A DNA stretch of 59,709 bases. It comes from a virus. The stretch is from positions 1 to 59,709 of IMG/VR virus record IMGVR_UViG_3300024999_000116; one strand, written 5' to 3'. The translations under genes and the position numbers were made by a program. How positions within the stretch are numbered: position 1 is the stretch's first letter; every line of letters starts with the position of its first letter. Of the stretch, positions 2,923 to 14,726 are shown piece after piece. The notes under the pieces were generated by a model. It made no database searches. It saw only the letters and a list, made by a program, of their open reading frames with translations, and was not told the DNA's origin.

Positions 2923-3420
2923 GCTATGTACACGCTGTACCTATGGACGTTCTTATAATGTGCATTATGTCAACTAGATAAGGCCAAAAGTGCCGTATTT
3001 CCTGCATTTCTTAGTCAGGTGTTCGGTTACTGGTTCCGTTTTTGTCATTGTCCTGCTGTGGTGGACATTTTACCGTACCTGCTCCATTTCACAGGCGCAG
3101 GGTTGTGATACTGTGTTGTACGCACAGAGCGCAGCGCATACGCGAGCAGGGAGCGCAAGCGCACGTATTTAGATAGGATATTCGCCAAAAAGAGGGGGTG
3201 GGGGTCAAACACCCCCGGTATGGATTGGCGGGACTCCGGCGAAGGGTACCTGTACTTTATACTATCACCATCTAACAACATATACATTTTACACAATTTC
3301 ACAAAGTTTATAAATCACTATAATCCAAAAGGAAGTGATTATCGTACTATCAATAATTAAACGCTTCATCCATAACTATTGTCGTATCATACATAAACTA
3401 AATTAAAAGGAGTGTTTATT
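2923..3420. other. Gene-free GC-rich stretch, possible packaging site
   Basis: No convincing gene is present in about 500 nt. The part 3100-3250 is richer in G+C than its surroundings and holds GGGGGTG/CACCCCC arms around 3193-3223 plus several GCGC/CGCA clusters. Lying just after terS, it is a reasonable place for a cos or pac site. The last 150 nt are AT-rich leader for the next gene. Confidence 0.3.
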
Positions 3421-3687
3421 ATGGGATTGACAGCAAGTCAAATGAAAATGTTGCAACTAATGGCTAAAAAGAATGATATGGCAGGTATTCAAAAAATGTT
3501 GGCAAGTGCTACACCGGCTAAAGCATCCAGCAAACCTGCGACACCTCAACAGCAGGCAGCAAATAAAAAACGTGAGGCTCAGATTAAAGCCATGGAGTCT
3601 GCGGCTAAAGCACAGAAAAAAGAAATTGCTGCGGTAGCTAAAAATATTAATAGTAAGGAAAAAATGTCTTTCAAAACTTTCGCATAA
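3421..3687 (+). CDS. Small basic Ala/Lys-rich protein
   Basis: The product is 88 residues, rich in Ala, Lys and Gln, with a Pro-containing linker around residues 35-48 and a basic helical second half (NKKREAQIKAMESAAKAQKK). It could bind nucleic acid or be a minor virion protein; I do not recognise a family. AAAAGGAG precedes ATG 3421 by 8 nt. Confidence 0.6.
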   Translation: MGLTASQMKMLQLMAKKNDMAGIQKMLASATPAKASSKPATPQQQAANKKREAQIKAMESAAKAQKKEIAAVAKNINSKEKMSFKTFA

Positions 3688-3695
3688 TGATGTAA

Positions 3696-3734
3696 ACAAC
3701 AACCGCCATTTACCGACGGTGGTTGTTGTTTTTA
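3696..3734 (+). terminator. Intrinsic terminator
   Basis: A 12-bp stem with one G-T pair (3696-3707 with 3718-3729) is followed by TTTTT. Confidence 0.85.
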
Positions 3735-3782
3735 CACCAATATACATATTTATCTAACTATTAACCGAAAACGGAGGAAATA

Positions 3783-4133
3783 ATGAGCAATGTTAAAAAG
3801 TACCGCAGAAAACCTATTTTTGTTGATGCAGAGCCTTATGTTGATGGCTTGGAAGATGGTTTTTATCAAGGAATTCCTTATATTACTGCCGGACAAATAA
3901 AGATAAAAATATCACCGGGAGATTATATTGCAACAAGACCGGATGGTGCTAGATTCCTCTATGAACCTAAAAACTTCGAGGCGACTTATGAGGAAGTAGA
4001 GAATATGGAAGATACTCGCCCCATATGTCCTGACTGTAAAACTATCATGGTTAAGACTCGTATTGAGTTAAGTGACGGTAGCGGTTGGTTCTCTGGTTGG
4101 GGTTGTGATTGTAAATATGAACCAAAAAGTTAA
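3783..4133 (+). CDS. Phage PGDYI-type protein with zinc ribbon
   Basis: Residues 1-75 follow a common small phage domain (KYRRKPIFVDAE, then SPGDYIATRPDG and an F-x5-Y ending). The C-terminus adds CPDC and CDC pairs like a zinc ribbon. The function is unknown. A related N-terminal domain occurs on the Tad2-like protein near 33.4 kb. Confidence 0.65.
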   Translation: MSNVKKYRRKPIFVDAEPYVDGLEDGFYQGIPYITAGQIKIKISPGDYIATRPDGARFLYEPKNFEATYEEVENMEDTRPICPDCKTIMVKTRIELSDGSGWFSGWGCDCKYEPKS

Positions 4134-4556: not shown

Positions 4557-6299
4557 ATGACCGATCAGCAAAAGGAAAAGAAGAAACTATCCGCTCAGAA
4601 ATTAAGGGAAAAAGCGGCAGCAAAAGTTGAATTGGAATATCGTAAATCCGCTAAGAGTGTAGAGTATTTTATAGATAAATACGCCTATATTGAGGATAGG
4701 GACGTTCCCGACTTAGTTGCTAAACTTAATTTATGGGACGGTCAAAAGGAAGCGTTAAGGAAGATTATTGACAGTAAGTTGTCGATTATTCTCAAAGCGC
4801 GGCAGTTAGGTTTTACTTGGCTATCTCTTATTTACGGATTGCACGGGGTTATATTTCGACCCGGTTATTCCGTTGTTGCTCTATCTAAGAGGGAAGAGGA
4901 CGCTAAGGAACTTATTAGGCGTATATGCTTTATCCTTAGATACTTACCTTCATGGATGATTCGTCACGTTAAGGGTACTCCGAAGCAATATCCTAACCCT
5001 ACATGGGATTCAACGGTATTGTCGGTTACTATCTATCATAAAGGAAAAGAACCTGCTGTTTTTAATGCTATGTCTGCCGGTCCTGATAGTGGACGTTCCT
5101 TTACGGCGAATCTTGTAATACTTGATGAATGGGCGTTTCAGATGTTTGCTAGAGATATTTGGTCTGCTGCTTACCCTACTATTAATCGACCTACTGGTGG
5201 ACAGGTTATTGGGCTATCTACCGCTAAAAAAGGTACTTTATTTGAGGAAATATTTTGGAAGGCGTACAACGGCGAGAATACGTTTACGCCTATATTTATG
5301 CCTTGGAGTACCGACCCTAGACGTACTCAGGATTGGTATGAGCAGGTTAAAAAAGACTTACCTCATAGTTATATGGCAGAGTATCCGGCGACTCCAGAAG
5401 AGGCGTTTACTGCCGGTGAAGGTCAGTTCTTTAAAGAGTTTAGGCGTGATGTGCATGTTGTGAAACCGTTTAAGATACCTTCGTGGTGGAAAAGGTTCTG
5501 CTCGTTGGACTATGGACTTGATATGTGTTCATGTCACTGGTGGGCAGTATCGCCGGAAGGTATTATGTACGCTTATCGTGAATTATATCAACCTAATTTA
5601 ACCCTTAGTCAAGCGGCGAAGAAAATTATCTCCATGACACCTAAAGACGAGAAAATTAGTTATACGGTTGCTTCTCCTGACTTGTGGAATAGGCGACAAG
5701 AGACAGGGACAAGCGGTAGAGAAATAATGAATCGTGCCGGACTTAATAACCTCAGAAAAGCAAAGCATGACCGTGTTGCAGGTTGGAGGGCATTAAGGGA
5801 GTATCTGTTAGTTAGAGAGGAAAAGCAGGACGTTATGACCGATGAAGGTATTAATACGGTTACTGTACTCACTTCCAGATTAAAGATATTTGATAACTGT
5901 AAGAATGTTATAAGGTGCCTGCCTCTATTGGAGCATGATAAGAACAATCCAGAAGATGCGGCAGATACGCCACATGAGGTCACACATTCACCGGAAGAAT
6001 GTTTAATTGGAGAAACAATAATAAACACTCCTGATGGTGATTTTACTATTAAGGATTTAGTTGGTAAGTCTGGTAATGTATATTGTTATGACGAGGAAAA
6101 TAAGTGTATGTCAGTATCTACTTTTTCTGATGTAAGGTTAACTAAGGAGAATGTAGATGTATATGAAATAGAGTTATATGACGGAAGAAAGATTGTTGCA
6201 ACCAAAGATCATCCTGTGCTTACTAATAGCGGATGGAAGTTAGTTGGTCAACTTACTGACAATGATTATGTTATCGAGGTGGACTATGAAAGTTGTTAG
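4557..6299 (+). CDS. terL: Terminase large subunit N-part fused to N-intein
   Basis: Residues 1-481 form the ATPase and most of the nuclease of the packaging motor: KARQLGFT as Walker-A-like motif (about residue 79), LVILDEWAF as Walker B, GLSTAKKGT as coupling motif, and SLDYGLD starting the RNase-H-like nuclease. At Cys482 (codon at 6000) the sequence becomes an intein N-terminal domain of 99 residues: block A CLIGETIINTPDG and block B with the TKDHPVL motif. The frame stops at 6299 with no C-terminal intein. The missing parts are encoded at 6960-7223, so a working TerL of about 532 residues requires protein trans-splicing. The intein sits in the conserved C-terminal nuclease motif (HEVTHSPEE before, CRYAVMSRPP after). 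Confidence 0.9.
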   Translation: MTDQQKEKKKLSAQKLREKAAAKVELEYRKSAKSVEYFIDKYAYIEDRDVPDLVAKLNLWDGQKEALRKIIDSKLSIILKARQLGFTWLSLIYGLHGVIFRPGYSVVALSKREEDAKELIRRICFILRYLPSWMIRHVKGTPKQYPNPTWDSTVLSVTIYHKGKEPAVFNAMSAGPDSGRSFTANLVILDEWAFQMFARDIWSAAYPTINRPTGGQVIGLSTAKKGTLFEEIFWKAYNGENTFTPIFMPWSTDPRRTQDWYEQVKKDLPHSYMAEYPATPEEAFTAGEGQFFKEFRRDVHVVKPFKIPSWWKRFCSLDYGLDMCSCHWWAVSPEGIMYAYRELYQPNLTLSQAAKKIISMTPKDEKISYTVASPDLWNRRQETGTSGREIMNRAGLNNLRKAKHDRVAGWRALREYLLVREEKQDVMTDEGINTVTVLTSRLKIFDNCKNVIRCLPLLEHDKNNPEDAADTPHEVTHSPEECLIGETIINTPDGDFTIKDLVGKSGNVYCYDEENKCMSVSTFSDVRLTKENVDVYEIELYDGRKIVATKDHPVLTNSGWKLVGQLTDNDYVIEVDYESC

Positions 6300-6954
6300 G
6301 GAAGTAAAAACAATAACAACTGAATATATAGAGCTTAACGGAATTAAGTTCTATAAGGACGGCAAGGGTTATTGGTTAGGGACTGTTAATAAGAAACCTA
6401 AAAGACTCCATATTTATGTATGGGAATGTGTTAATGGTTCTGTTCCTAAAGGTTACCACATTCACCATGTAGACTTGGATAAGGACAATAACGATATTGA
6501 CAACCTTGTTGCAATGGAAAAGGAAGAACATTTAAGACTTCATGCCTTATTGAATGGTCAAGATGAGGAATATAGGGAAAAGCGCAGGAAGGTATTGTAC
6601 GAAAATAGACACCTTGCGGCAGAGTGGCATGGTTCAGAAGAGGGTAGAGAAACTTCTCGTCGTAATTGGTATAAATCACTTGGTATATACATGGAACAAA
6701 TGATAACTCTTGAATGTGATAATTGCGGTAAAAAATATGAAACAAGTGTTATAAGTAAAAAACATAGTAGATTCTGCGGCAATAAATGCAAGTCAGCATA
6801 CAGAAGAAAGTTAAGACTTGATGATGTGGAAAAAGAATGTTTTGTTTGTGGTAAAAAGTTTTTCTCTAGTAAATATGACAAAGTTAAGACGTGCTCAAAA
6901 GAATGCGGCACTAAGTTGATGCTCCTTAACCGCAATGGTATAAGGAGGTTTTAA
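6286..6954 (+). CDS. HNH homing endonuclease inside the split intein
   Basis: The 222-residue protein begins at ATG 6286, behind GAGGTGG and overlapping the last 14 nt of the N-intein gene. It holds an HNH-3-like core (GYHIHHVDLDKDNNDIDNLV, about residues 53-72), as in many intron-encoded nucleases, then two C-x2-C...C-x3-C zinc fingers (CDNCGKKY; CFVCGKKF) for DNA recognition. Its place between intein halves suggests it spreads the intein by cutting intein-free terL. Confidence 0.85.
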   Translation: MKVVREVKTITTEYIELNGIKFYKDGKGYWLGTVNKKPKRLHIYVWECVNGSVPKGYHIHHVDLDKDNNDIDNLVAMEKEEHLRLHALLNGQDEEYREKRRKVLYENRHLAAEWHGSEEGRETSRRNWYKSLGIYMEQMITLECDNCGKKYETSVISKKHSRFCGNKCKSAYRRKLRLDDVEKECFVCGKKFFSSKYDKVKTCSKECGTKLMLLNRNGIRRF

Positions 6955-6959
6955 TTTAT

Positions 6960-7223
6960 ATGGTAAAAATTAAAGCGATTAGATATGTCGGAAAGTCTGA
7001 TGTATACAACATGGAAGTTGAAAAGCATCATAACTTTAGTGTTAATGGTGGACTTATCGTTCATAATTGTCGCTACGCTGTAATGTCAAGACCTCCAATT
7101 TCTAAGAATGATAAGTATTCGTTTCCCGATGATATGTCGTTATCTGAGCAGTCAGCAGTTTTAAATAACATTGCGTTTGAGAAAGAATATGAGAAGTTAC
7201 AAGAACATATTGTAGGTTTTTAA
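6960..7223 (+). CDS. C-intein fused to terminase large subunit C-part
   Basis: Residues 1-36 are a C-terminal intein (VYNMEVEKHHNFSVNGGLIV as block F, ending HN). Cys37 is the +1 residue, and the terminase tail follows (CRYAVMSRPP, 51 residues to the stop). AAGGAGG, lying within the end of the HNH gene, is placed well for ATG 6960. With 4557-6299 it makes a split intein with Cys at both splice junctions. Confidence 0.9.
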   Translation: MVKIKAIRYVGKSDVYNMEVEKHHNFSVNGGLIVHNCRYAVMSRPPISKNDKYSFPDDMSLSEQSAVLNNIAFEKEYEKLQEHIVGF

Positions 7224-9901: not shown

Positions 9902-11023
9902 TTGATAAAAACTTACAAAGTTAGACTTGAACCGAATAAAGAGCAAGAACAAAAGATGTGGCAATCTGCCGGAACCGCTAGATGGGCGTATAACTGGACG
10001 TTGGGTGTACAACAAGAGAATCGCCAAAACGGCGGTAAGTTTATTCAAGACGGTGAGTTGCGTAAAAGTTTAACTAAGTTAAAGAAAACAGAAGAATTTT
10101 GTTGGCTTAAAAAATACTCTAATAATATTACAAAACAAGCAGTTAAGGATGCTTGCAAAGCATATAAATCATTTTTTAATGGCAATAGTAAATTTCCTAA
10201 ATTTAAGAGTAAAAAGAAAAGCAGGACATCATTCTATCAAGATACATCAAATATTAAAATTAATGAAACTCATGCAAGACTAGAAAAAATAGGATGGGTA
10301 AGGTTAAGCGAAACCAATAGAATACCGCAGGGAAGATACTTTAATCCAAGGGTTACGCATGATGGAATACATTGGTTTATATCTGTTGGCGTAGAGGAAT
10401 TTCCTGTATATCCCGAACTAACCAATGAAAGTATTGGTATTGATGTAGGAATTAAGAGTCTTGCTGTAGTCAGTAACGGAATGATATTTAAAAACATTAA
10501 TAAGTCAGGCAAGGTAAAAAAAATCAAAAAGCGTTTGCGTAGGTTGCAACGTAAATGCTCACGAAAATATTATAAAAATGGAAAGGGTGTAAGTTACGAA
10601 AAGACTAGTAACATTATAAAACTTGAAAAATCAATCTTAAAAATTCACCATAAACTAAAAGACATTAAAACTGATTATATCCATAAAACTACTTCCGAGA
10701 TAGTGAAAACCAAACCTTCAAGGGTAGTTATGGAGGATTTGAATATTACAGGAATGATGAAAAATAAGTATCTATCAAAAGCTATTCAGGAACAAAGTCT
10801 ATATGAATTTCACAGGCAAATGCAGTACAAATGCGAGTGGAACGGTATAGAGTTTGTTGTAGCAGATAGGTTTTTCCCATCATCAAAACTTTGTTCGGAG
10901 TGTGGATATATTCATAGGGAATTAAAATTATCTGATAGGACTTATATCTGTCCTGCTTGTGGTAACAAGATAGATAGGGATTATCAGGCAAGTTTAAACC
11001 TATCTAAATACGAATCAGCATAA
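9902..11023 (+). CDS. tnpB: TnpB RNA-guided nuclease (IS605/IS607 OrfB)
   Basis: The 373-residue protein has an N-terminal OrfB domain and a complete RuvC site: Asp in GIDVGIKSLAV (about residue 181), Glu in VVMEDLNI, and Asp in DRDYQASLNL. A CSEC...CPAC zinc ribbon lies before the last Asp. TnpB is a nuclease guided by an omega RNA from the element's right end. No TnpA is present, so it is non-autonomous or domesticated. The start is TTG after AAAGGAGGTGATAG. It lies between the portal and scaffold genes. Confidence 0.9.
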   Translation: MIKTYKVRLEPNKEQEQKMWQSAGTARWAYNWTLGVQQENRQNGGKFIQDGELRKSLTKLKKTEEFCWLKKYSNNITKQAVKDACKAYKSFFNGNSKFPKFKSKKKSRTSFYQDTSNIKINETHARLEKIGWVRLSETNRIPQGRYFNPRVTHDGIHWFISVGVEEFPVYPELTNESIGIDVGIKSLAVVSNGMIFKNINKSGKVKKIKKRLRRLQRKCSRKYYKNGKGVSYEKTSNIIKLEKSILKIHHKLKDIKTDYIHKTTSEIVKTKPSRVVMEDLNITGMMKNKYLSKAIQEQSLYEFHRQMQYKCEWNGIEFVVADRFFPSSKLCSECGYIHRELKLSDRTYICPACGNKIDRDYQASLNLSKYESA

Positions 11024-11215
11024 AACCAATTTTAAAGGTTATGCCGATATGTACCCATAGTTAGTGGGGATTTTAAGCCTTTGGATTGCTACATCAAACA
11101 CGATTAGGATTAATCCGAAAGTGGGCAGGATGAATAAGGAAGAAAACTTTATATGTTTTTGTAACGGATAGGGTATGTGACGATGCTTTGGGCATTTAAA
11201 CTATCCCTATTTTTA
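11024..11215 (+). mobile_element. TnpB element right end, probable omega RNA
   Basis: About 190 nt after the tnpB stop hold no gene but several hairpins: AACC/GGTT at once after the stop, CCCA/TGGG around 11052-11067, and a GGATTAATCC palindrome. This is where omega RNAs and right ends lie in IS605/IS607 elements. An imperfect ATAGGG/CCCTAT hairpin with a T-run ends the stretch near 11215. The exact boundary is not determined. Confidence 0.5.
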
Positions 11216-13904: not shown

Positions 13905-14726
13905 ATGTTATCTAATTGCCCCGTATGTGGTAAAGAATTCAATGCAGTTGGAGCAGCTAAATATTGTTCCAAGGATTGCAGAATGATTGCTAAGATAAGC
14001 AGGGATGGTCGTCGCAAGACTGATATTTGCCCTAACTGTCTAAAAGAATTTATCGTTTCTAGTAACAGGCAGATATTCTGCTCTAAAGAGTGTTGGACTA
14101 TTGCGAACAGGGATAAAATAAGGGCAAAAACATATAAGGCAGTAATGAAGTATCACGATAAAAAATATTTTAACGGAAATAGGGAAATAGTCTTGGAAAG
14201 AGACGGTCATAAATGTATGAGGTGTGATTCTACTGAAAACATAGGGGTTCATCATATCGACAAGACGGGCAAGAAAGATAACCCTAATCATTCACTAGAC
14301 AACCTGATAACTTTATGTAATAACTGTCATTCGCAGGAACACGTTGAGGAAAAGAAGTTACCGCGAACCGCTTTTATGACTACATGCCAATACTGCGGTA
14401 ATCAGTTTAAAACTACCCCATATAAAATAAAAATAGGTGCAGGTAAATACTGCTCTAAGGAATGTAAGGATGCAGGCATGGTTACGCTGAAGGTTACAGA
14501 AGATTTACACCCAGCAGACAAACCCAATCATTTTATGGTTAGTTGCTGTAATTGCGGAACAAAGTTTTCAGTTCCTCCTAATAGGATTAAAAGAGGTACT
14601 GCACTTTACTGTAGTAGGTCGTGTAGAACTGTAGTTGAAAATAGTAAAAGGGCAGGTAAATACAAAATAAGTAATACTGAAAATATGGGCAAGGGTAGAA
14701 AAATAAATAAACAAGCAACAAACTAG
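13905..14726 (+). CDS. HNH endonuclease flanked by zinc fingers
   Basis: The 273-residue protein has two N-terminal C-x2-C...C-x3-C fingers, then a central HNH domain (REIVLERDGHKCMRCDS; GVHHIDKTG; LCNNCHSQEH), then two more fingers. Fingers flanking HNH are usual for DNA-binding homing nucleases. With its own promoter and terminator it is a self-contained guest after the capsid gene. Confidence 0.85.
   Translation: MLSNCPVCGKEFNAVGAAKYCSKDCRMIAKISRDGRRKTDICPNCLKEFIVSSNRQIFCSKECWTIANRDKIRAKTYKAVMKYHDKKYFNGNREIVLERDGHKCMRCDSTENIGVHHIDKTGKKDNPNHSLDNLITLCNNCHSQEHVEEKKLPRTAFMTTCQYCGNQFKTTPYKIKIGAGKYCSKECKDAGMVTLKVTEDLHPADKPNHFMVSCCNCGTKFSVPPNRIKRGTALYCSRSCRTVVENSKRAGKYKISNTENMGKGRKINKQATN

Follow-up and report, generated by a model that had tools for sequence, protein, structure and literature searches.

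Inteins inserted at the nuclease motif of the large terminase subunit (TerL) likely constitute a single homing system whose HNH endonuclease gene lies outside the intein frame and which occurs in 3 interchangeable states: split, nested (with the HNH gene overprinted inside a continuous intein whose own frame is kept only free of stops), and re-fused after deletion of the HNH gene. Fractured genes would then be a reversible state and not a dead end. The family with its 3 states may be new, whereas the copy in the window alone is another member of the known fractured genes (the window being the complete stretch of 59,709 nucleotides analyzed here, which is the whole IMG/VR virus record IMGVR_UViG_3300024999_000116).

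In the window, terL consists of 2 genes with an HNH gene between them, all on the plus strand. The terL frame (4557–6299, 580 amino acids) starts with an N-extein of 481 codons (4557–5999) that comprises the ATPase domain and most of the nuclease domain and ends in ...THSPEE, which we take to be nuclease motif III. The frame then turns into an N-intein of 99 residues (6000–6299), which begins at Cys1 (residue 482, codon 6000–6002), contains the block B motif TKDH, and ends at a TAG stop codon (6297–6299). The HNH gene (6286–6954) opens at the ATG at position 6286, thus overlapping the N-half by 14 nt, and encodes a protein of 222 amino acids with an HNH_3 domain (residues 40–84) followed by 2 zinc finger-like Cys motifs. 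The C-half gene (6960–7223) has its own ATG at position 6960 and encodes a C-intein of 36 residues ending in His-Asn (...IVHN, 6960–7067) and a C-extein of 51 residues from Cys+1 (CRYAVM..., 7068–7223 with the stop codon). Joining the 2 exteins is predicted to give a terminase of 481 + 51 = 532 amino acids. The original prediction had proposed a terL frame running into an N-intein and a stop, a free-standing HNH gene overlapping it, a separate gene with a C-intein and the terminase tail, and a spliced product of about 532 residues, and our coordinates agree with it to the base.

Profile searches were then compared with this anatomy. The N-extein showed homology to TerL (phrog_2 of PHROGs, E = 2e-32), the N-half matched intein_Nterm (NCBIfam) with 36.4 bits (cut-off 24.5), and the C-half matched intein_Cterm (NCBIfam) with 27.1 bits (cut-off 15.6). 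Both halves matched PF14890 (Intein_splicing) below its curated cut-off (33.3 and 24.3 versus 35.8 bits), which is natural because each of them is half an intein. The HNH protein matched HNH_3 above cut-off (E = 2e-14) and no other nuclease family, and gave no match against PDB sequences. The 2 halves together contain the features of a class 1 intein, which are Cys1 (CLIGET...), the block B motif TxxH (TKDH), the C-terminal His-Asn, and Cys at +1. The splicing halves are located on separate polypeptides with their own starts, as in split inteins, and an endonuclease gene lies between the 2 halves of the host gene, as in fractured genes. Its sequence motifs identify the locus as a class 1 split intein inserted at the nuclease motif of TerL, with a probable homing endonuclease gene between the halves, and the fractured gene that had been predicted holds in both its anatomy and its splice motifs.

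We consider it very likely that this 2-gene terL is trans-spliced to the 532-residue terminase and that the HNH gene is the homing part of the element. The N-half, the HNH protein, and the C-half would each be translated from their own start, which the start sites support (Shine-Dalgarno matches of 6 nt for the HNH gene and 8 nt for the C-half). The intein halves would assemble into a class 1 HINT domain and, as motifs and fold suggest, join the exteins at Glu481-Cys482. Regarding the fold, the window intein halves group in the same family as a continuous cousin, the HNH-free mini-intein L136, which by sequence matches the solved inteins Spl DnaX, NrdJ-1, and Npu DnaE. L136 was predicted to form a HINT domain (pLDDT 95.9), with the DnaB and NrdJ-1 inteins as nearest folds (TMq 0.90–0.92). 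From its family, its position, and the pairs of empty and occupied sites, the HNH protein probably cuts terL alleles without the element at the nuclease-motif site. Repair would copy the N-intein, the HNH gene, the C-intein, and some flank into the recipient, and the copied element would bring the Cys that is absent from the empty site. Packaging, and with it virion production, would depend on splicing because the missing C-terminus comes after the nuclease motif.

Close relatives of the element were collected by scans with the window N-half, HNH protein, and C-half. Seven other contigs carry the element (L002, L003, L004, L005, L007, L015, and L023, with L007 and L023 ending inside it at the contig end). 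Intein-free terL homologues, which the original prediction had proposed to search for, were found in 12 contigs with an empty, uninterrupted site. The residue at the position of the splice Cys was Phe, Leu, or Val in all 12 empty-site contigs and Cys in the 6 of 6 occupied records in which both junctions were compared (the window and 5 contigs), some of the occupied or empty contigs being near copies of each other. Thus, the splice Cys goes with the element. The occupied contig L002 and the empty contig L006 are 99.86% identical in N-extein DNA up to the insertion and 88.9% identical in the C-extein. L002 and L004 are 100% identical over 2,676 bases downstream of the site and approximately 95% upstream, and in L003, which comes from another sample, an L002-type upstream part is joined to a different downstream part. 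Because L002 and L003 are short metagenome contigs, chimeric assembly could mimic part of this mosaic, though the upstream junction is the same in both. Between the window and L002, dS was 0.41 in the N-extein, 0.18 in the N-intein, 2.2 in the HNH gene (a value near saturation and imprecise), 1.26 in the C-intein, and 0.38 in the C-extein, and dN was 0.01 in the N-extein and 0.22 in the HNH gene, with purifying selection seen on the exteins and on the HNH gene. These separate dS values suggest that the recent ancestry of the window HNH gene probably differs from that of its N-intein. Over the 50 codons preceding the site, dS was uneven among pairs (0.03 to 2.6, one of them saturated) and therefore gives no clean length for a co-conversion tract. 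The mosaic descent of the parts and the empty and occupied pairs point to homing and recombination. Alleles with an empty site exist, and the element appears to move independently of its host gene, which corresponds to the behavior of a homing endonuclease.

Family-wide, we used 11 HNH proteins and 6 C-inteins as queries in profile scans and sorted the loci with profile HMMs for the N-intein, the C-intein, and the HNH domain. The HNH scan covered the best 80 of 244 matches and the C-intein scan, seeded by split-type sequences, the best 80 of 107. Among the matches listed, an N-intein, an HNH domain, and a C-intein occurred together in 150 rows, of which 118 were left at 97% DNA identity. These non-redundant inteins comprised 58 split cases, 59 continuous cases with the HNH gene out of frame, and 1 with the HNH in frame, a ratio of 58:59 that is not a census because of the best-80 listings and the split-type seeds; among the loci of the HNH scan (best 80 of 244), 56 were nested and 11 split. 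The 58 split cases are spread over many TerL families among the matches listed, and the N-exteins of both classes are mostly terminases according to PHROGs. Counted per single family and not as a union, 43 of 50 split members were matched by phrog_5653 alone and 33 of 55 nested ones by phrog_2 alone, the remaining 2 of the 57 nested members having insufficient length for inclusion. Most junctions are located at the motif HxxDAxRY, at few neighboring positions. Nested examples include Acinetobacter phage Highwayman, Tetrasphaera phage TJE1, and a human-gut phage. The split layout is present in the records of Lactobacillus phage CL2 and of Brochothrix phage BL3 (L038, 1936–2607), where the split terL intein has only a decayed HNH remnant and is annotated as terminase and gp3. 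In the split genes, Shine-Dalgarno matches of at least 5 nt were found at 39 of 47 HNH starts and 26 of 46 C-half starts (0.21 in the background set).

On the HNH tree, split and nested states switch with 6 changes, of which well supported branches force only 1. GC content was not supported as the cause of the split or nested state (N-extein GC medians 0.43 versus 0.47, Mann-Whitney p = 0.16). A nested ancestry of the window copy was likewise not retained: among 49 split representatives, the N and C frames coincide in 23 (one-sided p = 0.03, uncorrected for relatedness), which is only a weak hint, and the stop counts in the window HNH gene show no trace of a former nested state. Several loci depart from the common layouts. 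In the split loci L141 (3194–3421), L159 (3190–3423), and L180 (3127–3396), an additional small gene separates the N-half from the HNH gene, and its products in L141 and L159 resemble each other. L092 contains 2 inteins in one open frame, 1 long continuous and 1 with a nested HNH gene (808–1944 and 3136–4101). C-intein relatives were also found on 2 contigs assigned to Asgard-type archaeal MAGs (L211 and L212), which could be viral or mis-binned.

To analyze the nested state, synonymous codons were shuffled within each HNH gene in 113 of the 118 representatives, leaving out 4 with a broken HNH gene and the in-frame case. The +1 frame was open in 55 genes, while shuffling predicted 5.4, and the +2 frame was open in 4 genes (L109, L115, L123, and L124), each with 8.6 to 13.4 stops expected, while shuffling predicted none. 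Overall, 59 genes have an open second frame versus about 5 by chance. The same holds for HNH genes below 40% GC, in which the +1 frame was open in 20 of 56 (0.81 expected). In split genes, the stops in the +1 frame were as expected (7.17 observed versus 7.19), and the window HNH gene has 11 and 35 stops in the two frames, compared with 10.2 and 33.6 predicted for frames without constraint. Codon-position patterns track the HNH frame. A functional sequence in the second frame of nested genes was not supported, with amino acid identities of 0.38 and 0.43 in nested genes, much like the 0.34 and 0.47 in split genes, which do not use that frame for coding (matched identity bins, 14 and 10 pairs in all). 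The Pfam Intein_splicing family spans the linker in the 4 of 4 nested inteins tested, all above cut-off. The structure predicted for the nested intein L120 has a mostly confident HINT domain, matching gp41-1 and other inteins, and a low-confidence linker. The open frame without conserved amino acids, the spanning Pfam matches, and the fold together indicate that the nested linker seems to have to stay open but to need no particular sequence.

The third state is represented by continuous inteins without an HNH gene. We considered 7 of the 11 HNH-free continuous rows, leaving out L045, L092, and L181 as unlike the others and L179 as a duplicate of L178. In the Hint tree, these 7 distinct mini-inteins fall at 7 places among the split inteins; overall support is low, and at least 4 of the 7 placements are forced by well supported branches. 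Splicing-domain identity reaches 95% between L198 and the split L184, and 92% between L136 and L149. In 4 of the 7 (L162, L136, L198, and L140), the linker retains the HNH C-terminus of a split neighbor out of frame. The remnant in L162 spans 28 residues with 82% identity and includes the zinc-finger Cys motif; those in L136, L198, and L140 are short and partly coincide with a stretch shared with the C-half, which makes L162 the decisive case. Of 280 trials with shuffled peptides, 2 gave a match at E <= 0.01, and searches of L169, L178, and L150 at this threshold gave no HNH remnant apart from a 6-residue match in L178 at E = 0.01. As judged from these sequences, the direction in L162 is from split to continuous, and a split intein can thus become re-fused when its HNH gene is lost.

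The HNH protein could instead be a packaging cofactor of the terminase, a role described for HK97, and be kept for that function and not for homing. Free-standing genes of the HNH family adjoin terminase genes in Pseudomonas phage PAE1, Sphaerotilus phage SN1, Salmonella phage Shemara, Exiguobacterium phage EauM-23, and Acinetobacter phage BP10, and a double role of HNH is discussed in PMC10448857. We consider this explanation unlikely, since near-identical empty-site relatives have no match to the window HNH in the stretch compared, the gene is placed precisely within the intein and has a divergence of its own, apart from that of terL, and the mini-inteins have lost it. A broken and decaying terL, with the C-half as a remnant, would also produce 3 frames in place of one. 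However, extein dN is 0.01–0.02 against a dS of 0.4 (window versus L002), the splice residues are kept, the genes have their own Shine-Dalgarno sites, the arrangement recurs in many contigs, and the split terL is the sole large terminase subunit among the ORFs scanned in the window, all of which makes decay highly improbable.

An artificial origin of the split, in which sequencing or assembly error has interrupted a continuous intein, might be suspected because the N and C frames of the window are in phase. The HNH gene is in another phase, however, and across the HNH domain there are 35 stops in the terL frame, so that no single frameshift yields one continuous frame. The stop counts in the 2 other frames, close to the unconstrained expectation, and the repetition of the layout in independent assemblies also argue against an error, to which we assign hardly any probability; the original prediction stands on this point because the layout recurs. 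Phage HNH genes are often located in group I introns, and an RNA intron could in principle separate the halves. Nevertheless, both borders are intein motifs and Rfam at gathering scores detected only tRNA and RAGATH-18 in the window, making an intron exceedingly improbable. A trans-spliced terminase with an HNH gene that serves homing is the explanation that we prefer.

Fractured genes are an established kind reportedly described by Dassa et al. in 2009, with an endonuclease family said to be VSR-like. As in those genes, a split intein interrupts the host gene in the window and an endonuclease gene separates the halves, but the window differs in its host, terL at the nuclease motif, and in its endonuclease, which has HNH_3 and zinc fingers and no match to that original family. 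Out-of-frame HNH genes inside TerL inteins and re-fused split inteins were not recognized in the literature searched, which had bioRxiv preprints outside its scope; judging by its title, a 2025 preprint by Gosselin et al. on actinobacteriophage inteins with "non-canonical architecture" may already describe out-of-frame endonucleases in inteins. According to PMC6892783, the split intein in DNA polymerase B of phage MIJ3 also has an HNH homing endonuclease gene between its halves (between orf153 and orf155), in another host gene and with other intein block sequences. AceL-TerL and GOS-TerL are, according to PMC11766414, naturally split TerL inteins from metagenomes like that of the window, but they are split after an N-fragment of 25–37 residues, whereas the window intein is split 99/36 at the usual endonuclease position and does not belong to them. 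Another intein in TerL, that of TaPaz, appears in PMC8228797. PMC11855218, published in 2025, presents out-of-frame HNH genes of the ShiLan type as a methylase insertion without a splicing domain. Their zinc-finger HNH in another frame, with the host frame open, resembles the 59 nested relatives, in which the host frame is open through the HNH gene; these have complete splicing motifs, however, and the window copy is split and its host frame closed.

The family provides a natural series for the origin and the undoing of split inteins, a question usually argued from single cases, and a collection of dual-coding genes that combine a frame under sequence constraint with one that only has to stay open. 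It also adds dozens of new canonically split inteins, some of them belonging to named phages. For the viruses themselves, a selfish element would control the assembly of the packaging nuclease. The window contains 3 more HNH genes (475–960, 2467–2919, and 13905–14723), 2 of which flank the small terminase gene (2022–2450), which marks the packaging region as a hot spot of HNH genes. Finally, the stretch 9902–11141 contains a transposase-like gene and, directly after it, a RAGATH-18 RNA (11078–11141), which may serve as guide RNA for a TnpB-like element.
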